A stretch of DNA of 63,493 bases from a bacterium (GTDB taxonomy: Bacteria > UBA4055), in assembly GCA_029559475.1 (NCBI GenBank), contig JAKQBN010000050.1, positions 1-63,493 of the forward strand, read 5' to 3'. Below the pieces are notes generated by a model that did no database searches, was not told the origin of the DNA, and saw only the letters and a program-made list of their open reading frames with translations. The position numbers and the translations under genes were made by a program. Of the stretch, positions 3,670-62,005 are shown in pieces (position 1 is the stretch's first letter; every line of letters starts with the position of its first letter).

Positions 3670-5791
3670 TGTGAGTTTAATGTTTATTATAAACCTTATT
3701 TGCGCACAGACGGTGACTGACAGCCTGTTCGCGCATTATCATTTAAGCGGAAACACTGTCGAGATCACATTCACAGATATAACCGCTGCGATACAGGGAA
3801 CTGAGAACGGTTCCGTAGCTTACGGCGATTATGACAGCGACGGCGATCTTGATATTCTCGTTACTGGCGATACAGGTACGGGATATATTTCAACGATCTA
3901 CAGGAACGATAACGGGGTCTTTACCGCCATAAATGATGGGCTGCCCGGAACCGCTTTCGGATCAGCCGAATGGGGAGATTATGACAATGACGGTGATCTT
4001 GACATTCTGTTAACAGGAATGACAGATTCAGAAATTATATCTGCTGTTTACAAAAACGAAGGTAGCGGCATCTTCACCGATATCAACGCGCCGCTTTTAG
4101 GTATGCGCTACGGATGCGCAACATGGGGTGATAATGATAACGACGGCGATCTTGATATTCTGATGTCCGGCGAACATGATTATTCTCCTGAGTTAAGACT
4201 CTACAGTAATCTTGGCGATAATACATTTGCAGAGATCGCACTGTTTTTTTCAGATGCTGTTCCGCTGTTCAGAAACAGCTCTCTCAAATGGACAGATTAC
4301 GATAAAGATTCGGACCTGGATATCATTATTACAGGCGCAACATGGGATGTTGAAAATGCGTTCATCTACAGAAATGACGGATGGATTTTCACCAATATTT
4401 ATGCCGGGCTGACGGGAGTCTGCTACAGCTCTGTTGATTGCGCCGATTATGACAGCGACGGCGATACGGATATTATTATTACCGGCAGCGACTTTTCATC
4501 GACAGTTTTTACATCAAAAATATACCGTAATGACGGATATGATGTTTTTACGGATATCAGTGCGGGACTTATAGGAGTTCATAGAGGCTCGGGCCGATGG
4601 GGAGATTATGACAATGACGGCGATCCGGATGTGCTGATAAGCGGGTACGACGGAGCGGCTCCTCTGACAAAACTGTATAGAAACGAAGGCGGTGATGTTT
4701 TTACGGAAGCATCCGTTGCGGTACCGCATGTAATGTACGGTTCAGCTTCATGGTTCGACCATGACAACGACAACGATCTTGATATCTTCCTGAACGGTAC
4801 GGCTGCTTCAAAAAGTAAAGTTTCAGGCATCTACTCCAACAATACTCTTGTTAAGAACACAAAACCTTTACCGCCTTCAGTATTAAATGTTAATTTCACA
4901 TGGCAGAATACGTTCGCGACATGGAACGGGGCATCCGATTCGGAGACTCTACAGCCCGGTCTTTCATATAATATTGAGCTTATGCTGAACGGTAAAACAA
5001 TTAGAACCTCTTCATCCGATACTGCGAACGGTTACAGAAGAATTACCGGAACCGGGAATCTGGGTCAAAATCAGATGAGCTACAATATATTACCTTTAAA
5101 ACTTCCTCTGCTTCCTATGGAGGAAGCTAAAAATATCGTGACGAAAATACAATCTGTTGACAACTGTTACGCAGGATCAATGTTCGCAGTATCGGACACT
5201 ACCTTTGTTTCAGATACGCTTGAAGTCAGCTCCAAGAACATCATGCTGCCTTCGGATTATCTATCATGGGAATATGTGTATCCTGATTCTATACTGAATT
5301 ATCAGGTTCAGATAGATGATAATGCGAATTTCGACAGCCCGTTGAACGAAACGGTATCGTTACCTTCAAAAAAGATCACTCAAAGCGGTAAAGCGCTCTT
5401 TTTTAACCTTGCTCTGAATGAACTGACAAATTTCGACAGTCTATTAAACAATGAAATTTATTACTGGAGAGTGAAACCTGTTTATAAAAACAGCAAAAGA
5501 GTAACGAATTTTACAGGGAACTCCCTCAGCTTTATTTACGATCCGATCTATTCCGCACCTTCGCCAGTCTCAATATCTGTTGAAGGCAACTATGTGACTT
5601 TGACGTGGGGGATAGGTAAAGAGGCTGGAAAGGGATTGTTATACAATATTTATTCAAGCGATGATCCCTACGCTGTATTCCCGGCTGGCTGGACACTTCT
5701 GATCTCGAACCTGAACGCTACAGAATGGACGGTCAGGTCAACTGCAGCCAAGAAATTCTACTGCGTGACCGCTGGAGGTGCGGGAAAATAA
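3656..5791 (+). CDS. Secreted FG-GAP/VCBS repeat protein with Fn3-like tail
   Basis: 711 residues with a signal peptide (MKKFIVSLMFIINLICAQ). Seven FG-GAP repeats occupy residues about 40-395. Each carries a calcium-binding DxDxDGDxD loop such as DYDSDGDLDI; the fourth (DYDKDSDLDI) and last (DHDNDNDLDI) are degenerate. A beta-sandwich, Fn3-like tail of about 300 residues follows. It ends in a block (YSAPSPVSISVEGNYVTLTW to KKFYCVTAGGAGK) shared with two neighbours. FG-GAP repeats fold as a beta-propeller typical of extracellular adhesion proteins. The common C-terminal block may be a surface-attachment or secretion signal, which is inference. This protein aligns repeat by repeat with the second half of the gene at 13740-17525. 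Confidence 0.85.
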   Translation: MKKFIVSLMFIINLICAQTVTDSLFAHYHLSGNTVEITFTDITAAIQGTENGSVAYGDYDSDGDLDILVTGDTGTGYISTIYRNDNGVFTAINDGLPGTAFGSAEWGDYDNDGDLDILLTGMTDSEIISAVYKNEGSGIFTDINAPLLGMRYGCATWGDNDNDGDLDILMSGEHDYSPELRLYSNLGDNTFAEIALFFSDAVPLFRNSSLKWTDYDKDSDLDIIITGATWDVENAFIYRNDGWIFTNIYAGLTGVCYSSVDCADYDSDGDTDIIITGSDFSSTVFTSKIYRNDGYDVFTDISAGLIGVHRGSGRWGDYDNDGDPDVLISGYDGAAPLTKLYRNEGGDVFTEASVAVPHVMYGSASWFDHDNDNDLDIFLNGTAASKSKVSGIYSNNTLVKNTKPLPPSVLNVNFTWQNTFATWNGASDSETLQPGLSYNIELMLNGKTIRTSSSDTANGYRRITGTGNLGQNQMSYNILPLKLPLLPMEEAKNIVTKIQSVDNCYAGSMFAVSDTTFVSDTLEVSSKNIMLPSDYLSWEYVYPDSILNYQVQIDDNANFDSPLNETVSLPSKKITQSGKALFFNLALNELTNFDSLLNNEIYYWRVKPVYKNSKRVTNFTGNSLSFIYDPIYSAPSPVSISVEGNYVTLTWGIGKEAGKGLLYNIYSSDDPYAVFPAGWTLLISNLNATEWTVRSTAAKKFYCVTAGGAGK

Positions 5792-5911: not shown

Positions 5912-8900
5912 ATGGGAACAACAAGGCAGTTCATCACAACGATGTTAATATCCGTCATACTTTTATCAGGCAGTTTGTTCGCAACAGCACTTAATGAAAG
6001 TTTTACCGGTACGGCTTTTCCTCCTGCGGGATGGTCGGTAGTGAATAACGGAGATACCAACGGATGGTACCGTTATCAGGGAACAGGGGCACATAGCGGC
6101 GGTAGCTGTGCATTTATCAATTATTCTACAGCTGCGCACGATGACTGGCTGATCAGTCCTCAGCTGTCACCTAAGACCGGTGATGTTACATTCAGTTTCT
6201 GGGCAAGAAGCGTCAGCTCTTATTATTTTGACAGATTTAATGTAAAGCTGTCTATAGGCGGAAATGTTACCACCGACTTTACAGTAACTTTAGCTTCAAA
6301 CATTCAATCAACAGCCGGATGGACACAATATACATATAATCTTTCAGCCTATGCCGGTCAAAAAGTACATATCGCCGTTCAGGCAATTTCTACGAATATG
6401 TCAGGGCTGCTGCTCGATGATGTGGCCGGTCCTTCAATGACAGGTTTTGAAGGTTTTGAAACCGGCGATCTCTCTGCCTTCGACTGGAATAATTCTTATC
6501 CAATCCCGTGGACTGTACAAAGTTCGGAGAAATATTCCGGGTCTTATGCGGCTCAATCCGGTGCTTTGGCAAATGACTATGAAAGATCTACGATCAGTAT
6601 TTCAGTTACCGGATCTTCAGCAGGATACATTTCTTTTGTTAGGAAAGTAAGCGGTGATTCGGGATATTATTTTGCTTTCGCTATAGACGGAGCGTATGCA
6701 GGCGGTATAATGACCGGAGATGATACATGGACTCAGCAGAGCTATTATGTCGGGTCGGGCGATCATACATTCGAGTGGTTCTTACTAAGGACTGAATCGG
6801 GCGGCAGCGGTACCGCATGGCTGGATAACATCGTCTTTCCGCCGAAAATCTACGGTACTGATACAAATCCTTTTCTTATATATACACCTTCGGATCTGAA
6901 CTATGTTCGAAACTGTCTCGGTACGGCCTATGCGGGTAAATACTTTAAATTGATGAATGATATTGACCTGACTGCCTATCTTGCGCCTGGCGGCGAAGGT
7001 TATGCGGCATGGGGTACGAACGGATGGCTTCCGATAGGCAACGGATCGAACTATTTCTACGGTATTTTTGACGGCAACAATTATACAATATCGAACCTAA
7101 GATGTGCTTATTACGGAACCTATCACGGTCTTTTCGGAGTTACAGGCACCGGAAGTGCAATTGAGAATGTAGTTATGAGCAGCAACTGTTTCATTCTTGG
7201 TGATGCGGACACCGGATCAATTGTCGGGCATAATAAAGGGACTGTAAGAAAATGCAGATCCGCAGCTACCGTAAATATCGGTAATGCTACTACGGGCGGA
7301 GGAATTGTCGGCAACAACAATGCCGGAAGAACTACCAACTGTAGCTTTACGGGTACTATAACAAGATCCGGAAGCGGTGTATCATGCAACGGTATCGGCG
7401 GGATCGCCGGCCGAAACGAGACAGGAGCTGTGATCGACAGCTGTTACTCAACCGGAAGTGTTACGGGAAATACATGGAATGGAGGTCTTGTCGGCTGGAA
7501 CAACGGCACGATCAATAAGTGCTGGACAGCCGGAAGCATTACCGGAGCGGAGAATTCACAGGGCGGATTGGTCGGGCAGAATCAGGGGAACATAAACAAT
7601 TCATATTCATTTGCGTCTGTAAGCGGTGCTCATTTCATAGGCGGTCTGGTCGGAAATATAGGCGCAGGAACGATCACGAACTGCTATGCAACCGGACTCG
7701 TTACAGGAGGTCAGAAAGGAGGGCTCTGCGGTTATTCGACAGGCACGGTGAATAATTCCTACTGGGATAAACAGACAACCGGACTGACGACTTCATACGG
7801 TTCTGCGGATACTTACGGCAAAACGACCGCTGAAATGAAGATTCAGACCACTTTTTCAGGCTGGGATTTCACAACCGAACCGGTCTGGCATATTACAGCG
7901 CAGAACTCGGGATACCCTCATCTTTCATGGCAGCTGATCCCGCCTGCTGCAGTGACAGCCGTTCCGGCGACAGACATAACAGCTACAAGCTTTACAGCGA
8001 ACTGGAATTCAGCTGATGATGCGGTCGGATATTATATTGATATATCAAATTATAATAACTTTTCGAACTTTGTACCGGGCTACAACGGTTATGATGCCGG
8101 AAATGTTACTTCATTAAGCGTTACCGGACTTGATCCGGTGAGTACCTATTATTACCGCGTAAGAGCTTATAATACTGCCGGAATAGGCATTAATTCAAAT
8201 ATAATATCGCCTGCAATGCCTGCTTTTGACGGAAGCGGAACAGAACCTGATCCGTTTAGAATATATACCTCCGCACAGTTAAGCGCGGTAAGAAATTATC
8301 TCGGAAGCGCTAACGCGGACAAATACTTTCAGGTGATGAACGCCATTGATCTGGCGGCTTACCTTTCATCCGGCGCAGGATACAACAACGGATATTTCTG
8401 GCTTCCTATCGGAGACGCGGCAAATCCGTTCTGCGGAAAGTTCAAAGGCGGCTACAATATGATCTCCTCACTGAAGATAAACAGAGCGGCAACGGATTAC
8501 TCAGGTCTGTTCGGCTATGCAGGAACCGGATCGGCGCTGGAAGGCATCTTTATTCAGATCGATCCTGCAGGATCAGTGAAGGGAAAGAACTATACGGGTG
8601 GTCTTGCCGGATACGCTGAAGGCGGTACGATAAGCATGTGTTATGTTGAAGGAACTGTTATAGGAAGCATCAACGGCACCGGCGGACTCGTGGGGATTTA
8701 CGGAGAAAACGGTAAAATATCACAATGTCAGACTATCGGTAACGTAAATGGAGCCAACAGTTATACCGGAGGTCTAGTCGGAGAAAGCAGCAGCGAAATT
8801 ACAATATGTTATTCATCATGCGCAGTTAACGGCGATTATTATACGGGCGGCCTTGTCGGAAGCAACCGCAGTCCGGTTGACATCAGCTGCAGTACCGCTG

Positions 8901-50111: not shown

Positions 50112-51407
50112 ATGGCGAACAATGATTATTTTCAAGTGACCGGCGGGAAAAAACTCGCAGGCACTATAGTGCCCTCAGGCAACAAGAATGAAGCTCTCCC
50201 TGCCATCGCGGCAGCGCTTTTAACCGAAGAGGAAGTCGTTATTGAGAACATACCTGATATTCTCGATACGCGGCACATGATAGATATCGCCGCAGATCTC
50301 GGTGTTAAAGTTAAAAAGATCAGCGGGAATGATTATTCTTTTAAAGCATGGAAAATTACTAAGGACAGGCTTGATACTGCGCTTTCGTCAGCTATAAGAA
50401 GTTCGCTTCTTTTTCTCGCGCCGATGCTGCTCCGGAAGGGAACAGTGCCTCTTCCACTTTCCGGCGGAGATAAGATAGGAAAAAGGAGGATCGATTCCCA
50501 CCTTTTCGCTTTTGAAAAGCTTGGAGTTACGATAAATGATGCCGGCAGCGAGTGCGTGCTTACCGCAAAAAAACTTAAGGGAACTGATTTCTTACTGGAT
50601 GAGGCTTCAGTCATGGCCACAGAGAACGCGGTCATGCTCGCTGTACTCACGCCCGGAACGACATCGATATACAACGCCGCCTGCGAGCCCCACGTTCAGA
50701 ACCTGTGCATAATGCTGAACAACATGGGAGCGGTCATATCGGGCATAGGTACGAACAGGATAGTGATCAAAGGAGTGAAAAAACTTCACGGAACCAGGCA
50801 CAGAATACTGCCCGATCATATCGAGACGGGATCTTTCATGGGGCTTGCCGCGGTCATCGGGGGCGGAGTGACTATAAAAGGCGCATATACTCCGCACATG
50901 GAGATAATCTTTCCCGCATTTAGAAAACTGGGTATAGAGTATAAAGTGACAGGTAACGACATCTTCATTCCCGGGAATCAGAAACCACGTATCGAAGAGG
51001 ACTTTGGCGGAAGCATTCCTTCGATATCCGACCAGCCGTGGCCGTCATTTCCGGCGGATCTGACGAGTATTATGGTCGTAGCGGCAGTATTTTCGAAAGG
51101 AACAATTATAATTCATGAGAAAATGTTCGAAGGCAGGCTGTTCTTCGTCGATTCGCTTATCAGGATGGGCGCGAAAGTCGTACTGTGCGATCCCCACAGA
51201 GTGGTTGTTTCAGGACCGGGCAGGCTTAAACCTACCGAACTGTCCTCACCGGACATCAGGGCCGGAATGGCGCTTCTTATAGCGGCTCTGGCCGCTAAAG
51301 GTACCACGGTCATAAAGAATATTAAGCAGATCGACAGAGGATACCAGGATATCGATCTTAAACTTAAAGGACTGGGCGCCGGAATAACGAGGATAGTTAA
51401 AGATTAA
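50112..51407 (+). CDS. murA: UDP-N-acetylglucosamine 1-carboxyvinyltransferase MurA, Asp-type active site
   Basis: 431 residues, GGAG before the ATG. The opening LAGTIVPSGNKNEALPAIAA binds the UDP-sugar (Lys25-Asn26). The active-site loop reads LSGGDKIGKRRIDSHLF: the Cys of E. coli MurA (Cys115) is replaced by Asp120. Further conserved parts are the loop at ASVMATENAVMLAV and the C-terminal KQIDRGYQDIDLKLKGLGA. The enzyme adds enolpyruvate to UDP-GlcNAc, the first committed step of peptidoglycan synthesis. A Cys-to-Asp change at this place is known in Mycobacterium, Chlamydia and Borrelia and gives fosfomycin insensitivity with activity kept. Cytoplasmic. It overlaps the next gene by 1 nt (TAATG). 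Confidence 0.9.
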   Translation: MANNDYFQVTGGKKLAGTIVPSGNKNEALPAIAAALLTEEEVVIENIPDILDTRHMIDIAADLGVKVKKISGNDYSFKAWKITKDRLDTALSSAIRSSLLFLAPMLLRKGTVPLPLSGGDKIGKRRIDSHLFAFEKLGVTINDAGSECVLTAKKLKGTDFLLDEASVMATENAVMLAVLTPGTTSIYNAACEPHVQNLCIMLNNMGAVISGIGTNRIVIKGVKKLHGTRHRILPDHIETGSFMGLAAVIGGGVTIKGAYTPHMEIIFPAFRKLGIEYKVTGNDIFIPGNQKPRIEEDFGGSIPSISDQPWPSFPADLTSIMVVAAVFSKGTIIIHEKMFEGRLFFVDSLIRMGAKVVLCDPHRVVVSGPGRLKPTELSSPDIRAGMALLIAALAAKGTTVIKNIKQIDRGYQDIDLKLKGLGAGITRIVKD

Positions 51408-51958
51408 TGAGCCTTTTAACAATAATACTGACCGCTATAGGCATAAGTCTTGCGATCACAGGCATTAAAATGACGAAATACATTCTGTCGGCGAAAAAAG
51501 AACATTCGCTTCTTGTTTTTGATAATATCGACAAGTGGTACAGATCTGTTGCGGGAAATGAAGATCAAAATATAATTTCCGGCTTCGAGAAAGAGATCGA
51601 CCATATGTTCGAAAAGAAAGTTCTCAAAACCTCGGTCCTCAATTTTACCGATAAATTTATAGCGGATTATTTAGATCACATATCGCTTAACTCAGAAGCT
51701 GAAAATAAAAGCGTCGAATTCGAAAAACTTGCCGGGACCGGTCTTAAAAAAAGCCGCCAGAGCCTGAAGATACTGTCTCTTACCTACGGATACAATTATA
51801 ATCTGGCGAATTATTCCTATCTTAACTACTGGTATATTCTGCGGGGTAATTACAGCCTCTATAATTCAGGTAAAGCTGACTCTGAAGGTAAAAATTATAC
51901 TTTAAAAGACATCAGTGAGCCTTTTGAAATTCTAAGGTATTATTTTAAAGGTAATTAA
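51407..51958 (+). CDS. Small single-pass membrane protein of unknown function
   Basis: 183 residues. One N-terminal helix (LLTIILTAIGISLAITGIKM) is followed by a charged soluble part with several aromatic residues (NYNLANYSYLNYWYIL). I recognise no family. It starts on the last base of the murA stop, so translation is coupled to murA. Its 3' end overlaps the convergent phosphatase gene by 4 nt, leaving no room for a terminator between them. A role in envelope growth next to murA would be natural but is only positional inference. Confidence 0.6.
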   Translation: MSLLTIILTAIGISLAITGIKMTKYILSAKKEHSLLVFDNIDKWYRSVAGNEDQNIISGFEKEIDHMFEKKVLKTSVLNFTDKFIADYLDHISLNSEAENKSVEFEKLAGTGLKKSRQSLKILSLTYGYNYNLANYSYLNYWYILRGNYSLYNSGKADSEGKNYTLKDISEPFEILRYYFKGN

Positions 51959-53121
51959 AAAAGTTTCAATACAACGTGCTTGAGATACTTTTTCTCGATG
52001 ATCTCGGCTATGTCTTTTATGAGCTGAACGCGCATTTTATACTGAAGATCGAAGTGATATTCATTTGATGAAGTTCCCAAAAGGAAAAGTACCGAATCCG
52101 AATTAAGGATCATTTTCACTATCCTCTCCCCTGCTCCGTCTCCCGTTTTATCCGGATCCGCATTATCCCTGAGCATTCTTTCCACTCTTGAAAGTGTCAT
52201 TACTCCTTCAGTGACAAGATCGACATTCTCCATTTTGCTTATCGGCGGGAGGCCGTCGTTCAGATTTATCATAGTGTCTTTGAATTTAAATCCCAGCTCG
52301 CGCGAAATAATATCGGATGTAGTGCCGCCGGAGATAATCTTTTTTCCGTTGAATTCGGCGAACTGCCTTGCAAAGCTGAAGTCCTTTTCTTTCGAAGCGG
52401 GTGCGCCTGAGCAAATAAGCAGCTTTCTCGGCTCTCTGAAATGAACCGATAGTACGCTCGAATCGTCCTTTAAAGTGAATTTATCGTTCATTTCAGCTTT
52501 ATTTACGATCTTTTCGGCTATCACCCTAGCCGATATATCAGGATCTTCTGAAAGTGATTTGAGAATGTATTCCTCAGCGCCTTTTCTCTCCCATTCCACA
52601 TCGAATCCCAGGCCGGACTGAGATACCCCGTCCGTAAAAGCGATTATCCTGTCGCCCGTTCTAGGAATGAACGAAGACAGGTAAATTTTTTTTCCTTTAT
52701 GCTTTTCTCCGGTAAGTTCTATGTAATTCCATCCGGGATCGAATACGGACAGGTTCCTGACTATAACAGGCAACGGGCTGTCGTAAACTATCAGATCGGC
52801 TTTCTCTGAACCTCGGATGTCGATTATAACGAAAGTCGAATAACTGACCCGCCTTTCGCTGCATTCCGGAAGGATGTTCATAATAAGCTCTGAAGCTTCA
52901 GAAATATCTTTATGCTCGGATATGAAATTCAAAGCCATCGAAGCTGTCAGGCTTGCAAGAACATTGGCCTTGATCCCGCTTCCCATTCCGTCCGAAAGGA
53001 CCGCGATCTTCCGGTTCTCTTCTTTTATGTATTTTTTTGTAATGACATCACCGAAAGAATACTGTCCGTTCTTCGATTTCTGAAAATGATCTATATCTGT
53101 AAATATTTCTTTATTTTTCAT
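51955..53121 (-). CDS. SpoIIE/PP2C-type serine phosphatase of the redox-signalling operon
   Basis: 388 residues, no membrane segment. The PP2C metal sites are visible: VLSDGMGSGIKANVLAS near residues 40-58, IIAFTDGVSQSG near 160, and LKDDSSVLSV near 220. The C-terminal 155 residues (from LLICSGAPASKEKDF) form an extra domain that I do not recognise. SpoIIE phosphatases usually dephosphorylate anti-anti-sigma or related proteins, and homologues are known beside [FeFe]-hydrogenase genes. It overlaps the Fe-S/PAS gene by 11 nt, so the two are made together. It is the last gene of the operon. Confidence 0.75.
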   Translation of the reverse strand: MKNKEIFTDIDHFQKSKNGQYSFGDVITKKYIKEENRKIAVLSDGMGSGIKANVLASLTASMALNFISEHKDISEASELIMNILPECSERRVSYSTFVIIDIRGSEKADLIVYDSPLPVIVRNLSVFDPGWNYIELTGEKHKGKKIYLSSFIPRTGDRIIAFTDGVSQSGLGFDVEWERKGAEEYILKSLSEDPDISARVIAEKIVNKAEMNDKFTLKDDSSVLSVHFREPRKLLICSGAPASKEKDFSFARQFAEFNGKKIISGGTTSDIISRELGFKFKDTMINLNDGLPPISKMENVDLVTEGVMTLSRVERMLRDNADPDKTGDGAGERIVKMILNSDSVLFLLGTSSNEYHFDLQYKMRVQLIKDIAEIIEKKYLKHVVLKLF

Positions 53122-54214
53122 TTTCCGACAGAAGCCTTATTACTGAACTTAGAACATTTTCGGTCTTGGATGCGTTCTCACCCAGAAGATATGCGATCTT
53201 CTGCACAGTGTCCAGGTTCTCCCTGATGACATTCTCCGCTCGTTTTCTTACTTCCTCGTTCCTTACGTCCGGCATGCTCAGATCCAGAAAAACTGCGCCT
53301 GCGGTCTTGTTCTTTTCTATTGTAAAAAGCGTGATGTTCATTTTCTTACCGTTGTGAACAACATCTTTTGAGTAAGTGTCCTCGCCGCTTTCCATGAGTG
53401 CGGAAAAAAGCTGGTGATGAGAAAAAACCGATCTGAGGTCGGCACCTTTCAGTCCCGGATTTATCTCTTCGATAACTTCAATATCATCACCCATTAGTTT
53501 GGCGAAAGCGGAATTTGATTCGATGATGGTAAGCCGGTCATCTACGATCACGAATCCTGAAGGCATCTTTTTTAATAGAGATACCGAAAGCTCGGCAGTG
53601 TCTTTTGCGATCGCCAGCTCTCTGCTTCTTTTTACTCTTTCCGTAATATCGAAAAGAACGCTGACAAATCCTGCAGCCGCGCCTGATCTGTCTGTAAAAA
53701 CGGCTTTATGAAGTTCGATCGTTATAGTGTCGCCACCGGGATACTTTACATCAGCCTCGACCACCTGTTTCACGGGGTTTTTCAACAGACTCGCGTTAAG
53801 CTTTTCGTTAAGCTCGTTGTAAAGCTTGTTGTCGGAGTATTCAAACAGCTTCTTGTCCTTTATGTCGAACCTTTTTATTCCGGCTATATCTTCGTAGGCT
53901 TTATTGCATCCTATGGCCCTTCCTTCGATATCCTCATAAAGGATCGGAGCTGGAACGGCATCAAGGATCTCCTGATTTAAAAAGAGGCTGTCCCTTAATT
54001 CTTTCTCTTTTTTCTTGAGTTTTTCGATTATCTTTTTCGAAAGGACTACGCACATCGAAGGCTTTGCAGTACCGTCGAGCATCGCAGCGGCGAATTCCCG
54101 GCATGTTTTATAGCCGCATCCGCCACAGTCGATCTCGTCTGCTTTATCAAAGATCTCGATAAAGGTCAGAGCCTTTTTTATGTCGTTTTCCGAATATGTT
54201 TTATTACCTGCCAT
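53111..54214 (-). CDS. Fe-S cluster/PAS sensor protein
   Basis: 367 residues from ATG 54214, one base after the TAA of the receiver gene; a longer frame reaching 54328 would run inside that gene and is rejected. The N-terminus has a four-Cys cluster, Cys30-x2-Cys33-x4-Cys38 and Cys55 (IDCGGCGYKTC), the 4Fe-4S domain of electron-transfer and hydrogenase proteins. A PAS domain covers about 80-200 (ILDAVPAPILYEDIEGRAIG, ending FDITERVKRSREL). A second PAS covers about 215-330 (KKMPSGFVIVDDRLTIIESN). A helical C-terminus ends the chain, with no kinase or phosphatase domain. The chain probably senses redox state and passes it to the overlapping SpoIIE phosphatase. Confidence 0.75.
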   Translation of the reverse strand: MAGNKTYSENDIKKALTFIEIFDKADEIDCGGCGYKTCREFAAAMLDGTAKPSMCVVLSKKIIEKLKKKEKELRDSLFLNQEILDAVPAPILYEDIEGRAIGCNKAYEDIAGIKRFDIKDKKLFEYSDNKLYNELNEKLNASLLKNPVKQVVEADVKYPGGDTITIELHKAVFTDRSGAAAGFVSVLFDITERVKRSRELAIAKDTAELSVSLLKKMPSGFVIVDDRLTIIESNSAFAKLMGDDIEVIEEINPGLKGADLRSVFSHHQLFSALMESGEDTYSKDVVHNGKKMNITLFTIEKNKTAGAVFLDLSMPDVRNEEVRKRAENVIRENLDTVQKIAYLLGENASKTENVLSSVIRLLSENEK

Positions 54215-54215
54215 A

Positions 54216-54584
54216 TTATTTATTAAGCACTCTGTTAACGAGTGCTGATAATTTTTCAAGATCGACGGGTTTCTGCAAAACGGATTTAACATTCGGGATA
54301 TCGATGTCAAATATCTCCTGTCCCGCATTAGCTATGGATGAAGTTATTATGATCGGTATCGCGACCTTTTCGTCAAGCATCTGCTGAGCGAACACAAAAC
54401 CTTCGTCAGGCTGTTCCATCATTACGTCCACTATCATCAGGTCCGGTGAAAACTCCCTGATCTCTTTTCTTCCAATAGTAGTGTTCAATGCGGTTCTTAT
54501 CTCGTAGCCCTGGCCCTTAAAAAATGCGCTGTAGGCAGTAAGAATATCGGTATCATCGTCAATAAGAAGTATTTTCTTGGCCAT
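54216..54584 (-). CDS. Single-domain response regulator receiver
   Basis: 122 residues, a complete REC domain and nothing else. Acidic pair Asp10-Asp11, phosphoacceptor Asp53 (LMIVDVMMEQPDEGF), Ser/Thr at IITSSIA and Lys in LQKPVD. The sequence after the phosphoacceptor is shared with the REC of the Rex fusion and the receiver at 60976. With no output domain it likely acts as a phosphate carrier or binds a partner. It lies 9 nt after the Rex-REC gene. Confidence 0.85.
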   Translation of the reverse strand: MAKKILLIDDDTDILTAYSAFFKGQGYEIRTALNTTIGRKEIREFSPDLMIVDVMMEQPDEGFVFAQQMLDEKVAIPIIITSSIANAGQEIFDIDIPNVKSVLQKPVDLEKLSALVNRVLNK

Positions 54585-54593
54585 TTATCCCCC

Positions 54594-55598
54594 CTAAATA
54601 TATTTTTTTATTTTTAAGATCAGATCGTCCGGATCGACAGGTTTCTGAAGTATGATCTTGATGTTCAGCTGACTCACATCGAGAACGTTAGAAGTAGCTT
54701 TCGCAATCGAGGACTGGAGTATAACCGGGATATTGATATTTTTTTCCTTCAGTTCGTTCAGGAAAAGGAACCCGGCATCCGGATCCTCCATCATAATGTC
54801 TAAAATTATCAGATCCGGTTTGAACTTCGAGATCATGCTGAATCCTTCTTTCGAGTTCAAAGAGGAAGATACTTCATAACCGTTTTTTTTCAGAATAACT
54901 GTATAAATGTTAACAATGTCGCTGTCATCATCGATAACCAGAATTTTTTTTCCACATTCCTGAGATATTTTTTTCTCGCCCAGCACTTTTGCAAAGTAAG
55001 AAGCTTTTTCCAAAGATGTCGTTATGTCTATCTCTTCAAGAAATGTGTTTTCGGGAAGGTTTAAAGGCGTGGTCGTATAATTGATGATGGCTTTTATTCC
55101 CGATGCTGTCATCTTCTCCGCAATGTCTTTTGCGCTCCTGCTAGATGCCGCGATCATGCCTATGCTTATATTTTCTTCACTGATCTTTTCGCTTAGTCTG
55201 TCAACATGATAGCAGGGCACTCCCATATAATTTTTGCCTATCAGGTTTTCGTCAATATCAAAAAGTGCAGTGATCTTCAACTTTTCGCTTTTATCGTGCA
55301 GGAAATTGACGAGAGCTTTGCCGAGGTTTCCGATACCGACGATGCAGATATTCATGCCGTTCTTCGTATCCATGATTTCACCGATACTGTCCATCACTCC
55401 TTTTGTCTCGTATCCTTTTCTATTATTGCCCGAATATCCGATATACATCAGATCCCTTCTTACCTGAACAGAAGTTACATGCGCCATTTTCGCGAGATCG
55501 TGCGAATAAAAATATCCTGTACCTTCAGTGTATATTTTTTTAAGCAGCCTTCTGTATAACGAAAGCCTCTCTATTGTTTTTCCGTTTATGGGTTCCAT
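54594..55598 (-). CDS. Redox repressor Rex fused to a receiver domain
   Basis: 334 residues, against about 210 for ordinary Rex. Residues 1-75 are the Rex winged helix (DLAKMAHVTSVQVRRDLMYI, then NNRKGY). The Rossmann domain starts at CIVGIGNLGKAL (Gly88-x-Gly90-x2-Gly93), with Asp114 in ALFDIDEN at the adenosine-ribose position typical of NAD(H) binding. After about residue 212 comes a complete receiver: DDD 223-225, phosphoacceptor Asp267 (ILDIMMEDPDAGF) and Lys319 (LQKPVD). Rex normally leaves DNA when NADH/NAD+ rises; a receiver would add phosphorylation as a second input. It lies inside an operon with two histidine kinases and NADH-linked redox subunits, whose promoter has a Rex-like box. 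Confidence 0.9.
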   Translation of the reverse strand: MEPINGKTIERLSLYRRLLKKIYTEGTGYFYSHDLAKMAHVTSVQVRRDLMYIGYSGNNRKGYETKGVMDSIGEIMDTKNGMNICIVGIGNLGKALVNFLHDKSEKLKITALFDIDENLIGKNYMGVPCYHVDRLSEKISEENISIGMIAASSRSAKDIAEKMTASGIKAIINYTTTPLNLPENTFLEEIDITTSLEKASYFAKVLGEKKISQECGKKILVIDDDSDIVNIYTVILKKNGYEVSSSLNSKEGFSMISKFKPDLIILDIMMEDPDAGFLFLNELKEKNINIPVILQSSIAKATSNVLDVSQLNIKIILQKPVDPDDLILKIKKYI

Positions 55599-55603
55599 TT
55601 TTT

Positions 55604-56725
55604 TCAGGCCTGTTGTCTTAGAATAACTGTGAATACCGAACCTTTTCCATATTCGGATTTAACGTCAACGCTTCCGTTGTACAGCGAGATAATCTTTTTG
55701 ACCGTCGAAAGCCCTATCCCGCTGCCGGAAATATTAGCTGTCTTTTCGTTCTTGATCCTAGAAAATTCTTTAAACAGCTTTTCCTGATCTTTTGGCTCGA
55801 TACCGATCCCCGTATCCGCAACTGAGAATTTTAATGATCCGTTATCTGTTCCGAGGAAGACCTTTATCTTTCCGTTATCCACATTATATTTGATCGCGTT
55901 CGATATGAAGTTGTTCACTATTATCTCGATTTCGGTTTTGTCCGAATTAAATTCAATCTCTGACAGCTCTGATTCAACGTTCAGGCTCCTCTTCTGAATT
56001 TCCTCTTTAAAATTGCTCAGAGATTCGTTTACTATCGTATCGATCCTGACGGGAGAAAGAACGCGTTTTTTTTCGCCCGATTCAATCCTGGTAAGGTCGA
56101 GAAGGTCGAAGATCAGTTTTTCCATATCCTTGATCCTTATCTCTGACCGCTTGATAAATTCGTCATAAGCAGCAATATCGTTCCCCGCTATCCTTTTTTC
56201 CATAAGTTTGAGATAATTGCTTATCGCCGCGATCGGCGACTTCAGTTCGTGGGACAAAACTGAAATGAACTCAAATCTGATCTTCTTTTTTTCAGCTTCG
56301 AACTTTTTCGCCGAATTCGTTAAAATAAAATGTTTGGACGCCTTAAGAATAGCATCTTTAAGTTCCTGCGGTGTAAAAGGTTTGGTTAGAAAATCATAAG
56401 CGCCGTTCTTCGTGGCGGTAATGGCTGTTTCGATCGATGCGAATGCCGTTATCATGATCGTAAGAATGTCTCTCTGCGATTCGTGAAGCAGTTTTAAAAG
56501 ATCGACCCCGTGCATTCCGGGAAGCTGGTTGTCGAGAAGCAGAATGTCGTACTGCTTCGTTTTCATCATTTCGAGCCCGATCTCCGCGGTCTCCGCGACA
56601 TCCACAGTAAAGGCGTAATCAGACTCGATATAGCTAAGGCTCATCTTGAAATTCCTTAAAGCTCTCTTAATCGATTCTCTGATACCCTCTTCATCATCAA
56701 TGACCAATATGCTGATCTCATCCAT
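55604..56725 (-). CDS. Receiver-histidine kinase hybrid
   Basis: 373 residues, cytoplasmic. Receiver about 1-130 with phosphoacceptor Asp65 (LLLDNQLPG) and Lys115 in FLTKPF. The HisKA domain has phospho-acceptor His159 (SVLSHELKSPIAAI). The HATPase has NNFISNAIKYN, DTGIGIEP and GSGIGLSTVKK. A receiver at the N-terminus controlling a kinase is typical of phosphorelays without a membrane sensor. Five nt separate it from the Rex-REC gene. Candidate targets are the Rex receiver and the two free receivers of the same operon. Confidence 0.85.
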   Translation of the reverse strand: MDEISILVIDDEEGIRESIKRALRNFKMSLSYIESDYAFTVDVAETAEIGLEMMKTKQYDILLLDNQLPGMHGVDLLKLLHESQRDILTIMITAFASIETAITATKNGAYDFLTKPFTPQELKDAILKASKHFILTNSAKKFEAEKKKIRFEFISVLSHELKSPIAAISNYLKLMEKRIAGNDIAAYDEFIKRSEIRIKDMEKLIFDLLDLTRIESGEKKRVLSPVRIDTIVNESLSNFKEEIQKRSLNVESELSEIEFNSDKTEIEIIVNNFISNAIKYNVDNGKIKVFLGTDNGSLKFSVADTGIGIEPKDQEKLFKEFSRIKNEKTANISGSGIGLSTVKKIISLYNGSVDVKSEYGKGSVFTVILRQQA

Positions 56726-56736
56726 CTTCTATCCTT

Positions 56737-58632
56737 CTATTCGGGGTTTTTAGGCAGTGTCACGATAAATCTCGCGAAAGTATTGCCTTTTGATTTATCC
56801 GCGTTCGACTCTACGATTATTTTTCCTCTGTGCATCTTTATAATTCCATAGACTACCGCGAGGCCAAGGCCAGTTCCTTTGCCCATTTGTTTGGTCGAGA
56901 AGAAAGGTTCGAAAAGCTTCTTCTGATTTTCTTCGGTGATGCCGGGACCGTTATCTTCGTGTATAAATATCACGGCCTGCTTGTCGATGCCTGTCGATAT
57001 TCTGATCTCACCGTTCGATTTCATAGCATCCACAGAGTTATTGATGAAATTAACGAACACCTGGATCATCTGGCTTTCATCCATGGGGACTTCAAAGGCA
57101 GGATCTTCGTGTGTTATCAGCAGATTAACCGTTTTAGGCAGAATAACGCTTCTTTTCAAATTGTCAAAAAAGCTGTCGAGCCTGACTTTTGTTTTGTTCA
57201 CTTCGTTCTTACGGGCGAAATTCAAAAGCCCCGACAGTATAGTTTTACATCTTCCTGCCTGCGTGGCAATAGTATCAAGGTCTTTATAAATCTCTGAATT
57301 CGGGTCGCATTCATCCTTAAGAATGTTGCTGTACATAAGAACGACTCCGAGCGGGTTATTGACTTCGTGCGCTATCCCTGCCGAAAGCTGGCCCATCGTG
57401 GCTAGTTTTTCTGAGTGTTTAAGCGCGTCCTGCATTGTCGCAAGTTCCAGATCTCTTGTTTCAAGAGCCTGAAGATAGCCATGGAATCTTTCTATAGTGA
57501 CGAAATATACTATTACGGATATAACAAGCACTACAAGAAGGCTCAAAAGTAAAGAAGCAAGGATAAGGTTCCTTATCAGATCAGCGGTCTCTTCGCTTTC
57601 ATTGACGGCGGCGCATATGTAAAAATCAAAATCCCTAAAATAATCGTAAGCTATTATTTTTTCCTCGTTATCGACCTCGGATACGAATCTTTTTACGTGC
57701 GACTGATCCTTTAACAGCTCTTCTTTTTCGCTCATTATGGTCTTAATTATGCTCATGTTCTCCCAGTCATAGCCCCTGTCATTATGGTTAATTACCATTT
57801 TAGCCGAACCGTCGAACACGAATGGATACCCGGATTTTCCGATCTTGAGCTCACGAAATTTACTTGCAAGCTCGGGGAGGTCTTTTTCTTTAGAGCCGAC
57901 AAAGAGCATGCCTACGATCTCGCCTTCCTCATCCCGGATCGCACTGTATCCGGTTATATAGTATTCGTTAACGACAGGGAGCCTTCCGAAAAAGTCTTTT
58001 CCGTCGTAAAACGCGTTTGAAATGCCAGAGTAATTGGGTGAATCGAATCCGATAAAAGTGCCTACCGCCCTGTTGCCGTCATTGTTTGTGACATTAGTTG
58101 ATATTCTGATAAAACCTTTTTCGGTTTTCTGGAAAACAGTAGCCTGGCAGCCTAGAGTGGACTTGATCTTGTCCACGAAGTCATAATTATAGTGAAGTTC
58201 CTTTTTATTTAAAAACCATTTTCTGACCTCGATATCCTCAAGATATTTACCTTTATCGTTAAAAATTGAGAATTTAATTTTCTCTTTCGATATCTGAAAT
58301 CCTTTCTGGTAGAAGAGTTCCTTACTTATCCTCAGATTTTTCTGGGCGTGTTCAGTTTTGAGCTCGTATTCTCTCTCGAACATCTTCATAAGGGACTGAA
58401 CTTCAAGGCTCAGATAATTTTCGATCGAGTCGTATATGTTCTTTTTTGAGAGATAGACCGAGAAGAAAGTCATCGCCGAAACTGAAAAGACGATTATCAA
58501 AAGTATCGGAACGAATATCTTGAGTTTTGCCTTGAAGTTATGAAGTCTTTTGTTAAAAAACCTCTTAACTTTCTTCATCTGTTTATCCGTCTGGAAAAAC
58601 AGATCGTTCGGGATAACCGTCTTGTTATTCAT
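56737..58632 (-). CDS. Membrane sensor histidine kinase with double Cache domain
   Basis: 631 residues. Transmembrane helices at about 39-60 and 356-379 enclose an extracytoplasmic region of about 295 residues with a Cache3-Cache2 look (FFGRLPVVNEYYITGYSAI, then GEIVGMLFVGSKE and IGKSGYPFVFDG). No HAMP is obvious after the second helix. HisKA carries His422 (SAGIAHEVNNPLGVV). The HATPase has INNSVDAM, DNGPGI and GKGTGLGLAVVYGI. It has no receiver, so it must act through a separate one. Its start overlaps the NuoE-like gene by 8 nt. Confidence 0.85.
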   Translation of the reverse strand: MNNKTVIPNDLFFQTDKQMKKVKRFFNKRLHNFKAKLKIFVPILLIIVFSVSAMTFFSVYLSKKNIYDSIENYLSLEVQSLMKMFEREYELKTEHAQKNLRISKELFYQKGFQISKEKIKFSIFNDKGKYLEDIEVRKWFLNKKELHYNYDFVDKIKSTLGCQATVFQKTEKGFIRISTNVTNNDGNRAVGTFIGFDSPNYSGISNAFYDGKDFFGRLPVVNEYYITGYSAIRDEEGEIVGMLFVGSKEKDLPELASKFRELKIGKSGYPFVFDGSAKMVINHNDRGYDWENMSIIKTIMSEKEELLKDQSHVKRFVSEVDNEEKIIAYDYFRDFDFYICAAVNESEETADLIRNLILASLLLSLLVVLVISVIVYFVTIERFHGYLQALETRDLELATMQDALKHSEKLATMGQLSAGIAHEVNNPLGVVLMYSNILKDECDPNSEIYKDLDTIATQAGRCKTILSGLLNFARKNEVNKTKVRLDSFFDNLKRSVILPKTVNLLITHEDPAFEVPMDESQMIQVFVNFINNSVDAMKSNGEIRISTGIDKQAVIFIHEDNGPGITEENQKKLFEPFFSTKQMGKGTGLGLAVVYGIIKMHRGKIIVESNADKSKGNTFARFIVTLPKNPE

Positions 58633-59101
58633 ATTCTTTAATTATTTTCGCGACTTCTTCCGGTTTTACGCTGCCGTATACTTTTTCTCCGATCATTATT
58701 ACCGGGGCGAGACCGCAGGCTCCAATGCATCTTAATGTATTCATGGAGAATTTTCCGTCGGGAGTGGTCTGACCGTTTTTTATCTCAAGCTGCTTTTCAA
58801 ATTCCTTCAGAACTTTTTCCGCGCCTTTAACATAGCAGGCTGTTCCCATACATATCGAAATGGGATACTTACCCTTAGGTTCCATAGTAAAATATGAATA
58901 AAAAGTTATTACGCCGTATACCTTTGATGCCGGAATGTGTATAGTCTCCGCTATCGCAGTCTGAACTTCTTTAGGCAGAAATCCGAAATGGTTCTGGGAT
59001 TTGTGAAGTATGGCGATAAGTTCTTTCGGGTCGTTGTTGAATTCTTTACAGATCTCGGCGACTTTTTCTTTTATTTCCTTTTCTTTTATTGCACAGGCCA
59101 T
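58625..59101 (-). CDS. NuoE-like [2Fe-2S] subunit (HydC/HndA type)
   Basis: 158 residues. The thioredoxin-like [2Fe-2S] site is complete: Cys84 and Cys89 (CMGTAC), Cys125 and Cys129 (LRCIGACG). The helical N-terminus KSQNHFGFLPKEVQ and VYGVITFYSYF are standard for the 24-kDa subunit. In bifurcating [FeFe]-hydrogenases and NADH-dependent formate dehydrogenases this subunit forms a unit with the NuoF-like protein encoded 18 nt upstream. It overlaps the next kinase gene by 8 nt. The catalytic partner is not in the window. Confidence 0.9.
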   Translation of the reverse strand: MACAIKEKEIKEKVAEICKEFNNDPKELIAILHKSQNHFGFLPKEVQTAIAETIHIPASKVYGVITFYSYFTMEPKGKYPISICMGTACYVKGAEKVLKEFEKQLEIKNGQTTPDGKFSMNTLRCIGACGLAPVIMIGEKVYGSVKPEEVAKIIKEYE

Positions 59102-59119
59102 TTTTTTCTCCGGGAGTGG

Positions 59120-60580
59120 TTACTCTATTATTATCGCATTGAATTTACATTTCTGATAGCAGGCTCCGCATTTAATACATTTGTCCTGATCTATCAGATG
59201 CTTCTGCTTGATCTCGCCTGAGATAGCTTCAGCCGGACAGGCTCTTTTACATGCTCCGCATCCTACGCATTTGTCGGGTATGATAATGTATTTTATAAGT
59301 GCTCTGCAGACTTTCGCGCGGCATTTTTTTTCTACAACATGCTCGTAATATTCATCATAAAAATTATTCAGAGTAGAAAGGACAGGATTAGGCGCGGTCT
59401 GTCCCAGTCCGCATAGAGAAGTTGATTTGATGATTTCTGAAAGGTCTTTGAGTTTTTTAAGATCTTCGAGAGTTCCATTTCCGTGAGTGATCTTATTAAG
59501 TATCTGATAAAGAACTTTGTTGCCTTCTCTGCAGGGAACGCATTTTCCGCAGCTTTCCTCCACGGTAAAATCAAGATAGAACTGAGCTACGGCAGGCATA
59601 CAGTTGTCTTCATCCATTACGATAAGACCGCCCGAACCCATCATCGATCCTGCGGCCTTGAGGCTTTCATAATCTATCGGAGTATCCAGATGTTTTTCGG
59701 TCAGACATCCGCCGGACGGTCCGCCTGTCTGCGCGGCTTTGAATTTTTTGCCGCCGACTATCCCGCCGCCGATATCGAAAATAAGTTCTCTTAATGTCGT
59801 TCCCATCGGCACTTCGACAAGACCGACATTTTTAACTTTTCCCGCAAGCGCGAAAACTTTGGTGCCTTTAGACCCTTCGGTTCCGATAGATGCGAACCAG
59901 TCCGCGCCTTTGTTTATGATCGCGGGAATGTTCGCGAAAGTCTCCACGTTGTTCACGTTCGTCGGTTTTCCCATGAATCCTTTTTGAGCAGGATACGGAG
60001 GTTTCATTATAGGTTCACCCCTGTTCCCTTCCATAGATTTTATAAGTGCTGTCTCTTCGCCGCACACAAAAGCCCCGGCGCCGTATTTTAAACCTATCTC
60101 GAAATTGAAACCGGTACCGAGTATGTTCTGACCCAGAAGGCCGGCTTCTTTAGCCTGAGCCATCGCTATTTTCAGCCTTTTTATCGCCAGAGGATATTCA
60201 GCGCGGATGTAGATATATCCCTCGTCAGCTCCGATAGCGTATCCGCAGACAGCCATCGCTTCGAGGACCGAATGGGGATCGCCTTCGAGGACGGATCTGT
60301 CCATGAAAGCTCCGGGATCGCCTTCATCAGCATTGCAGATGACATATTTCTTGTCTCCCTTAACAGCAGCTGCAAGCTCCCATTTTTTTCCGGTTGGAAA
60401 TCCGCCGCCGCCTCTTCCTCTGAGGCCGGATTTTATAATTGTTTGAACAACTGTTTCTCTCGAACCGCTGAGCGTAGTGCTCAAGGCTTTGTAGCCGTCT
60501 CTTGCGATGTAATCTGACAGATCCTCCGGATCGATATGACCGCAGTTACGTAAAGCTATCTTAATCTGTTTACTTTTCAT
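59120..60580 (-). CDS. NuoF-like flavoprotein with ferredoxin tail (HydB/HndC type)
   Basis: 486 residues. FMN loop [16 protein letters not shown] (52-67), then [11 protein letters not shown] and [12 protein letters not shown] for NADH. The 4Fe-4S site is formed by [10 protein letters not shown] near 340 and LCGLGQ. The C-terminal tail holds two ferredoxin clusters: Cys438/441/444/448 and Cys468/471/474/478. That tail distinguishes hydrogenase- or formate-dehydrogenase-linked HydB/HndC from Nuo complex I. The N-terminal thioredoxin-like domain found in many HydB proteins is absent and is encoded as a separate gene 2 nt upstream. It probably carries out NAD(P)H oxidation or reduction in the cytoplasm. 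Confidence 0.9.
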
Positions 60581-60582
60581 AT

Positions 60583-60942
60583 TTAATTTTCCTCTATGAC
60601 GCCGTCGATTAGTTTTCCGTTCTTGATGTATTCATCTATTATCAGTTTCGCTCTTTTAGTATCCACTTTTCCGAAAACTACAGGTCCCGATCCGGGTAAG
60701 ACTACTTCAACAGTAGGTTCGGAATGGCACAAACCGAGACAGCCGGTAGGTTTTATGACGAACTCAACAGGCTGTTTTGGCATTTCCTCTTTAAAATACT
60801 CCAGGACTTTAGCTGAGCCAGATGCAATGCTGCAGGTAGCCATGGCTATATATATCCTGACCTTCTTTTCGTTTTCGGCCTCTTTAACTTTCAGTTCCTG
60901 TCTTAATGACTCGAATTCACCGAAATTTTTCAACTGTTTCAT
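60583..60942 (-). CDS. HndB-like thioredoxin-fold [2Fe-2S] protein
   Basis: 119 residues. The Cys pattern is [11 protein letters not shown] (Cys37) and [11 protein letters not shown] (Cys68, Cys72); a fourth Cys of the usual thioredoxin-like ferredoxin is not seen. The second half KPTGCLGLC is identical in layout to HndB and the N-terminal domain of HydB. It probably passes electrons between the NuoF-like subunit and its partner. It stops 2 nt before the nuoF-like start, whose ribosome binding site lies in its last codons. Confidence 0.8.
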
Positions 60943-60975
60943 TTTATTGATCCTGCCTTTTGCTTTTTTTCTTTT

Positions 60976-61350
60976 CTAGTTACCCGAAGCAAGTTTTTTT
61001 ACATTCGCTACAAGTTTTTCCAGATCGACCGGTTTCTGCATTATGATCCTTGCTCCCAGGTCTGAAATGTCGAAATTCATCTGGCTAGCTTTTGCGATAG
61101 AAGAGCACAGAATAACGGGAGTATTCAGGTTCTTTTCCTTCATTTCGCTTAAAAATTCAAATCCCGAGTCCGGAGATTCCATCATAACGTCAAGGATCAC
61201 GACATCGGGTTTCTCATTCTCAAGTTTTGTCATCCCTTCTTTTCCAGTAGTTGCGGAAATAACTTCAATTCCGTCAGCTTCAAGAACTGCTTTGTAGGCT
61301 ACGATAAAATCGATGCCGTCGTCGATGATCAGCGCTTTTGTTTTACTCAT
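60976..61350 (-). CDS. Single-domain receiver, first gene of the redox-signalling operon
   Basis: 124 residues from ATG 61350, 5 nt after a strong GGAGG; a TTG at 61362 overlaps that site and is rejected. REC features: Asp-Asp near 10-11, phosphoacceptor in VVILDVMMESPDSGFEF near 54, LCSSIAKA and MQKPVD. It shares with the Rex receiver and the receiver at 54216 an extended MME-PD-GF signature, so the three form one subfamily. There is no output domain. Being first in the operon, it is directly under the promoter with the Rex-like box. Confidence 0.85.
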   Translation of the reverse strand: MSKTKALIIDDGIDFIVAYKAVLEADGIEVISATTGKEGMTKLENEKPDVVILDVMMESPDSGFEFLSEMKEKNLNTPVILCSSIAKASQMNFDISDLGARIIMQKPVDLEKLVANVKKLASGN

Positions 61351-61386: not shown

Positions 61387-61404
61387 CTGTTACAAATTTA
61401 ACAA
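61387..61404 (-). promoter_or_regulatory. Candidate Rex operator
   Basis: An imperfect palindrome that agrees with the clostridial/Thermotogales-type Rex consensus TTGTTAANNNNTTAACAA at 12 of 14 fixed positions (TGTTA at 61388-61392, TTAACAA at 61398-61404). It covers the -10 box of the operon that encodes the Rex fusion. Confidence 0.6.
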
Positions 61405-61423
61405 ATAAAAAATGCTATGTCAA
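61395..61423 (-). promoter_or_regulatory. Sigma-70 promoter of the redox-signalling operon
   Basis: Minus strand TTGACA (61423-61418), 17 bp, TAAATT (61400-61395). It is a consensus -35 with the same -10 as secG and phoH. Confidence 0.75.
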
Positions 61424-61498: not shown

Positions 61499-61561
61499 TT
61501 TTTTGCTTGATTTCATTAAAGCAATTGATTATTTTAAATATCACAAATAAGGAGGTTCATG

Positions 61562-62005
61562 ATGAAGATCAAAGAAATTTTAGAAGGTAAAAAAACCGAA
61601 CTTTATACAGCAAAAGAATCAAGTAGTCTTTGCGAAGCTATGGCTACGATGCTTGACAAACATGTTTCGGCTCTTCTCGTAATGAACGGATCCGAACTTG
61701 AAGGAATAATATCCGAGAAGGATGTTATGAAGATCTGCCATATTTCATCAAAAGGACCCGCCGAACTGAAGGTAAAAGATTTCATGACTCCCAAAGACAA
61801 ACTTATAACATGCGGAACTAACGATACGATCGAATCTCTGATGGTTCTGATGACAGAAAAAAGAATCAGGCACATACCTGTGATCGCAAACGGCAGTGTT
61901 GAAGGTGTTGTGTCTATCGGGGACGTTATCAAAAACCTTCTTGATGCAGCAAAAAAAGACAACAAGCTGCTAATGGATTATATTAGCGGCACTTATCCTC
62001 ACTAA
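61562..62005 (+). CDS. CBS-domain pair protein
   Basis: 147 residues from ATG 61562, 6 nt after GGAGG; the ATG at 61559 is too close to it. Two CBS motifs: residues about 5-60 (LYTAKESSSLCEAMATML, then ISEKDVMKIC) and about 70-130 (FMTPKDKLITCGTNDT, then RIRHIPVIANGSVEGVVSIGDV). Stand-alone CBS pairs bind adenine nucleotides or NAD and act as energy sensors. It is divergent from the redox-signalling operon, which suggests common control. The 3' end overlaps the convergent kinase gene by 4 nt. Confidence 0.85.
   Translation: MKIKEILEGKKTELYTAKESSSLCEAMATMLDKHVSALLVMNGSELEGIISEKDVMKICHISSKGPAELKVKDFMTPKDKLITCGTNDTIESLMVLMTEKRIRHIPVIANGSVEGVVSIGDVIKNLLDAAKKDNKLLMDYISGTYPH

Follow-up and report, generated by a model that had tools for sequence, protein, structure and literature searches.

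The window, a stretch of 63,493 nucleotides of bacterial DNA, carries on its minus strand an operon of ten genes (61350 to 51955) that joins the NADH-linked subunits HndB, NuoF and NuoE to two histidine kinases, single-domain receivers, a Rex-type repressor with a fused receiver (Rex-REC), an Fe-S/PAS protein and a SpoIIE-type phosphatase. We consider it somewhat more probable than its alternatives taken together that this operon serves redox control and arose from an operon for an NAD-linked [FeFe]-hydrogenase and H2 sensor by the loss of all three H-cluster domains, with Rex-REC as its output. The domains lost would be the catalytic HydA and the hydrogenase (H) domains of HydS and of the sensor kinase, the kinase having a Cache domain in that place. 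The resemblance to a stripped H2-sensing and hydrogenase operon follows from the fact that the NuoEF/HndB subunits, the Fe-S/PAS protein and the Cache kinase each match relatives that bear the H domain. The comparison was made between the genome of the window (G000) and twelve relatives of one family; the next compared genomes share with them only the domain Bacteria.

The NADH module consists of an HndB-like [2Fe-2S] subunit of thioredoxin fold (60583–60942; a weak match to PF01257, just below the Pfam cut-off with 23.0 vs 24.8 bits), a NuoF/HydB/HndC-type NADH-FMN subunit with N3-type and two [4Fe-4S] clusters (59120–60580; PF01512, PF10589, PF00037) and a NuoE/HydC/HndA-type [2Fe-2S] subunit (58625–59101; PF01257, 1e-52), all on the minus strand. 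These follow one another in the same order as in the hndB-nuoF-hydA-nuoE operons of relatives G006 and G004, minus hydA, and are 40% (HndB), 71–72% (NuoF) and 65–66% (NuoE) identical to their counterparts there. In the tree, the operon NuoF sequences form one clade (support 98/99) that groups with the hnd NuoF (85/94), and all 20 NuoF cysteines are invariant across six operon copies. NuoF does not qualify as a complex I subunit, as it scores below the NCBIfam NuoF cut-offs (479.8 vs 558.65) and has an extra C-terminal 2x[4Fe-4S] domain, and NuoE passes one NCBIfam NuoE model (151.2 vs 141). The three partners of an Hnd-type hydrogenase are present and the catalytic HydA/HndD is missing; the [FeFe]-hydrogenase signature PF02906 was found neither in the operon nor in the rest of the G000 assembly.

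The closeness of NuoF, NuoE and HndB to true hnd hydrogenase partners, together with the presence of HydA genes in most relatives, would also fit an operon in which ordinary regulatory genes stand beside the genes for NAD-linked small [FeFe]-hydrogenase subunits, with the matching HydA encoded elsewhere. We regard this as unlikely. Free-standing HydA has its own adjoining, fused NuoE-NuoF in G001, G007, G008, G011 and G012, with just 37–40% identity to the operon NuoF, so that the operon subunits are improbable partners for it; moreover, G000 (92% complete) and G009 (86%) have neither PF02906 nor full-length HydF, yet the operon is intact in G000. In G005 the maturases are present on a contig ending just upstream of hydG, and the absence of hydA from that genome is probably an assembly gap.

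The second hydrogenase-related part lies at the end of the operon, where the Fe-S/PAS protein ([4Fe-4S]-PAS-PAS; 53111–54211, minus strand; PF04060, PF00989, PF13188) is followed by the SpoIIE-type PP2C serine phosphatase (51955–53121, minus strand; PF07228). The start at 54328 given for the former by the mechanical open reading frame call was rejected as too early; the ATG at 54211, 4 nt past the preceding receiver stop, fits. This protein is 46–48% identical to the C-terminal half of HydS-type proteins of 710–717 residues in G006 and G004, in which a ferredoxin and an [FeFe]-hydrogenase domain come first and whose genes are followed by SpoIIE. It retains the [4Fe-4S] domain (PF04060) followed by PAS that characterizes the C-terminal part of group C HydS, and PF02906, present in its homologs from G006, G004, G130 and G177, is absent, for which reason we describe it as the C-terminal half of HydS and not as a HydS member. 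Its C-x2-C-x4-C-x16-C motif is conserved in all ten aligned rows. Close homologs lacking the H domain are confined to this family among 290 genomes, and form one clade in the tree (92/93) with the HydS of G004, G006 and other lineages outside; the three best homologs from outside the family (G130, G177, G030) are 568–584 residues long, and both of those tested have a hydrogenase domain. In the phosphatase the motifs SDGMGSG, FTDG and KDD are conserved and the metal-binding Asp of PP2C enzymes is present. A further sensory-hydrogenase-like cluster occurs in G004 and G006 (L120, 239–4005; L123, 5955–9623), comprising a hydrogenase of 445–451 residues, RsbW-like ATPases and small DRTGG-like and PHP-like proteins.

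One could imagine that NuoF-NuoE-HndB serves as a sensor input, NADH electrons passing to the [4Fe-4S]-PAS protein and thereby setting the activity of the SpoIIE phosphatase. In those relatives whose contigs reach this part, the operon has lost the H domain that fed the Fe-S/PAS protein but retains the NADH module, and the invariance of every NuoF cysteine speaks for the same idea. To this proposal, too, we assign a low probability: the interaction between NuoEF and the Fe-S/PAS protein is a supposition, and a group D sensory hydrogenase has a C-terminal [4Fe-4S] cluster that was not reduced and did not change redox state under H2 (PMC13104023), which makes an electron-signalling role of the cluster doubtful and a structural rather than an electron-relay role possible for the one in the Fe-S/PAS protein.

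The third match concerns the membrane Cache-type sensor histidine kinase (56737–58632, minus strand; Cache_3-Cache_2, HisKA, HATPase). Its kinase half shares 58–60% identity with the corresponding half of a hydrogenase-[4Fe-4S]-kinase fusion in G006, which sits directly before the orthologs of the next two operon genes, the REC-HisKA-HATPase kinase (REC-kinase; 55604–56725, minus strand; PF00072, PF00512, PF02518) and Rex-REC. In G010 a hydrogenase domain of the same type as in the G006 fusion stands right after NuoE in the operon, the contig ending inside this domain. The kinase tree gave no order for the Cache and hydrogenase forms. In the REC-kinase the H box HELKSP and the G box are conserved in most orthologs.

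Rex-REC (54594–55598, minus strand) matches solved Rex structures over residues 1–204 with an E value of 1e-32, and has the N-terminal winged helix and the Rossmann NAD domain with GxGxxG expected of a Rex; residues 217–332 form a receiver with intact Asp, Ser and Lys. The glycine-rich loop, the QVRRDL helix and the FD past the second strand are conserved, with G006 reading GVGRLG. The AlphaFold model contains both folds (mean predicted local distance difference test, pLDDT, of 84) and a flexible linker at 210–214 after the C-terminal Rex helix; given a predicted template modelling score (pTM) of 0.56, the relative placement of the two domains is not predicted. Among the matches listed from 386 sampled genomes, 173 of them with Rex, the fusion occurs only in this family. 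Six long Rex candidates from other genomes contained no receiver, and for a Rex fused to a receiver nothing relevant was found in the open-licence literature. The fused receiver is 45–51% identical to the single-domain receivers RR1 (60976–61350; PF00072; Asp pair, phospho-Asp, Ser and Lys conserved) and RR2 (54216–54584; PF00072; active site conserved), both on the minus strand, which bears out the view of an earlier note on this DNA that three receivers of one subfamily are present; the operon has four receiver domains in total. The next receivers in the same genome match this subfamily at E values of about 1e-6, and a search of the genome's contigs with Rex-REC alone gave distant receivers as the sole matches. 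Apart from Rex models, the fused receiver comes closest in NCBIfam to the DVU0259 response regulator family, with a score under the cut-off of that family. In G006 a HydA-NuoEF hydrogenase operon (L055, 8062–12089) has the RR1 ortholog as its third gene, and this links the receiver subfamily to hydrogenase.

The operon is preceded by a sigma70-type promoter, TTGACA-17-TAAATT with an extended TG (61395–61423, minus strand; 10/12 matches, spacer 17), the -10 of which is overlapped by the candidate Rex-type operator TTGTTAAATTTGTAACAG (61387–61404, minus strand), matching 12/14 positions of the TTGTKAANNNNTTMACAA form. In nine genomes the aligned promoter reads about CTTGAC-N6-TTTTTATTTGTTAWATTTGTAACAG, the -10 being embedded in a palindrome of Rex-operator geometry, and promoter and palindrome are conserved in 9/9. 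G000, G001 and G002 each contain a single site that matches TTGTTAWATTTNTAACAG without mismatch, in every case at the operon promoter. These sites are operator-like by sequence, resembling the TTGTGAANNNNTTCACAA-type operators of Rex, and binding to them would be NADH-responsive. Other promoter-like matches within the operon are no more frequent than in shuffled sequences, and no conserved internal promoter was found. A single conserved promoter of this kind supports one transcription unit under putative redox control, and the placement of the boxes at or after the -10 suggests a repressor.

The likely reader of such boxes is the fusion itself, since G000, G001 and G002 have one PF06971 (Rex) gene each, and this is the fusion. 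A loose box pattern scanned over 13 genomes gave counts at chance level, so that a tighter pattern combined with promoter position was used. Rex-type boxes are then found close to -10-like sequences, or immediately downstream of them, at hydA of G001, G002, G007 and G008 and at the hnd operons of G006 and G004. The NuoEF-formate dehydrogenase operon has such a box upstream of it in G000, G001 and G002, which are all three members of the genus; on contig 17 of G000 the box, ATGTGAAAAATTTCACAG at 4539–4556, lies about 55 bases upstream of this operon. Most other sites with zero or one mismatch in these three genomes are located within genes or next to unrelated ones, and we did not take them as targets. 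Rex-REC thus probably controls the NADH-linked formate and hydrogen enzymes of the cell. The formate dehydrogenase locus on contig 17 (L064, 4594–14000) has a fused NuoE-NuoF followed by formate dehydrogenase genes in two frames, the frame break at 7392/7405 possibly being a selenocysteine codon, with a second NuoG/formate dehydrogenase-like start nearby. A second NADH-linked unit, on contig 4 of G000 (L063, 4616–10593), consists of NuoE, a fused HndB-NuoF and a protein of 1215 residues whose start resembles NuoG, whose middle resembles NfnB/GltD and whose end is of molybdopterin (formate dehydrogenase-like) type, and adjoins a glutamate dehydrogenase-like gene.

On these grounds the following mechanism can be proposed. 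At low NADH/NAD+, Rex-REC would occupy the operator over the -10, and at high NADH it would leave; its receiver would provide a second input through phosphorylation from the Cache kinase and the REC-kinase, phosphotransfer among the operon partners being suggested by their intact active-site residues. Rex-REC may also read the boxes that precede the NADH-linked formate dehydrogenase genes and, in sister species, hydA, so that the disposal of NADH as formate or H2 would be tuned to the redox state and to a Cache ligand, and the operon itself would be controlled too. NuoF-NuoE-HndB, in which all clusters are kept, would most likely act as a diaphorase between NADH and a ferredoxin-type partner, and the [4Fe-4S]-PAS protein with the SpoIIE phosphatase may form a second branch working through Ser/Thr phosphate. 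It is in our judgement an even bet that Rex-REC is a dual-input repressor, sensing NADH by its Rossmann domain and a kinase signal by its receiver, and that it took the place of direct H2 sensing in a family in which the hydrogenase-sensor operon was stripped of all its H-cluster domains.

The arrangement of the operon agrees with the earlier note, which had described ten packed genes with gaps mostly under 20 nt and overlaps of 8 and 11 nt: by Pfam, each of the ten is found with the domains named for it, and the spacers in gene order are 33, 2, 18, -8, 11, 5, 9, 4 and -11 nt. Its 3' end abuts a convergent gene (51407–51958), and at the other end a divergent CBS-domain gene outside the operon (61559–62005, plus strand), 208 bases from the operon start, shares the promoter region; orthologs of this gene are divergent from the operon in G000, G001, G002 and G011 and from hydA in G007 and G010. 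The note had also proposed that a lack of conservation of the neighbourhood in relatives would speak against a functional unit. Within the family, in relatives of several genera, the neighbourhood is conserved: G002, G005, G011 and G012 preserve the gene order, and G001, G008, G009 and G010 show parts of it on split contigs, and this recurrence rules out a chance cluster. In G011 and G012 a single further gene stands between RR1 and HndB; it belongs to the iron-containing alcohol dehydrogenase family and reads like a glycerol dehydrogenase, which is consistent with NADH metabolism. The operon is absent from G007 and G003, and in G006 its parts are scattered over separate loci. The ratio of nonsynonymous to synonymous substitution rates (dN/dS) is 0.05–0.18 for gene pairs with usable dS; the operon is under strong purifying selection and is maintained over long evolutionary time in one bacterial family. 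In G002, NuoF (L048, 5936–7234) is split, and about 70 residues between the two parts are lacking through a frameshift, a deletion or an assembly flaw. The description of the system as dedicated to redox decisions is reasonable in view of the family-wide conservation and of the single conserved promoter with its Rex-type operator; what it missed is the look of a hydrogenase remnant, the relatives with H domains and the likely targets that can be named, the formate dehydrogenase and HydA operons.

Comparison with known systems brings out the same pattern. The Fe-S/PAS and SpoIIE proteins correspond to the pairs formed in hfsABCD of Thermoanaerobacterium and by HydS of Ruminococcus albus, in which PAS-bearing HydS/HfsB is paired with the serine phosphatase HfsC; a redox-regulatory role is known, loss of hfsB altering adhE expression and fermentation (PMC5707799, PMC11837493). 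There, however, an [FeFe]-hydrogenase domain is part of the PAS protein and the hydrogenase HfsD is encoded in the operon as well, whereas here the hydrogenase domain is absent and Rex-REC, kinases and receivers are present. Among the HydDB groups of [FeFe]-hydrogenases, C1 is linked to histidine kinases and C3 to phosphatases (PMC5037454); the kinase half and the Fe-S/PAS-SpoIIE half share ancestry with such sensors in the relatives, but the H domain is missing and the input is replaced by Cache, or by nothing known. The order HndB, NuoF, NuoE is that of the NAD-linked electron-bifurcating hydrogenases Hnd/HydABC, from which the operon differs by the missing hydA and by a NuoF without the N-terminal thioredoxin-like domain of its relatives. 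The Rex of Caldicellulosiruptor bescii represses hydrogenase genes, hydG and itself (PMC6391272) and resembles Rex-REC in fold, operator type and the control predicted here of hydrogenase genes and of rex; Rex-REC differs by the receiver fused at its C-terminus, which was not found in other Rex genes examined. In the distant genome G130 (L189), Rex-NuoE-NuoF-HydA-HydS-SpoIIE stand in one run; the same functional parts are brought together, but with all hydrogenase domains present, a Rex without receiver, and no kinase or receiver genes.

These comparisons are read most simply as the loss of three H-cluster domains, the alternative being independent gains. Several points weigh against our interpretation. 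The direction of change rests on few un-stripped relatives, and the hydrogenase domain of G010 is cut by the contig end, so that a kinase fusion is unseen there. Since hydA and the maturases form one locus in sister species, the absence of hydA from G000 and G009 may be an assembly gap. No histidine phosphotransfer (HPt) domain, as a multi-step phosphorelay running from kinase to receiver to HPt to receiver would have, was found in the operon with Pfam. The operon box has a modest single-genome score (shuffle p 0.026), for which reason its weight is carried by conservation and position, and its consensus also fits CRP/FNR-type TGTGA-N6-TCACA sites, position and the single Rex being what favours Rex; the interpretation is drawn from sequence analysis throughout. 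That the operon is a decaying relic of a hydrogenase operon with no present function, as the three domains missing relative to the un-stripped relatives might suggest, is very improbable in view of the strong purifying selection, the intact catalytic residues in the parts examined and the conserved promoter.

If the operon did arise by loss of its H-cluster domains, the family offers a natural series of intermediates, G006 having three hydrogenase domains, G010 one that is seen, and the others none, which could show an H2-sensing system turning into an H2-independent redox regulator. In the Rex of this family, phosphorylation may gate the response to NADH. A natural deletion here also sets the signalling half of HydS and its SpoIIE phosphatase apart from the hydrogenase, and this is relevant to the way in which sensory hydrogenases of the PAS type signal.

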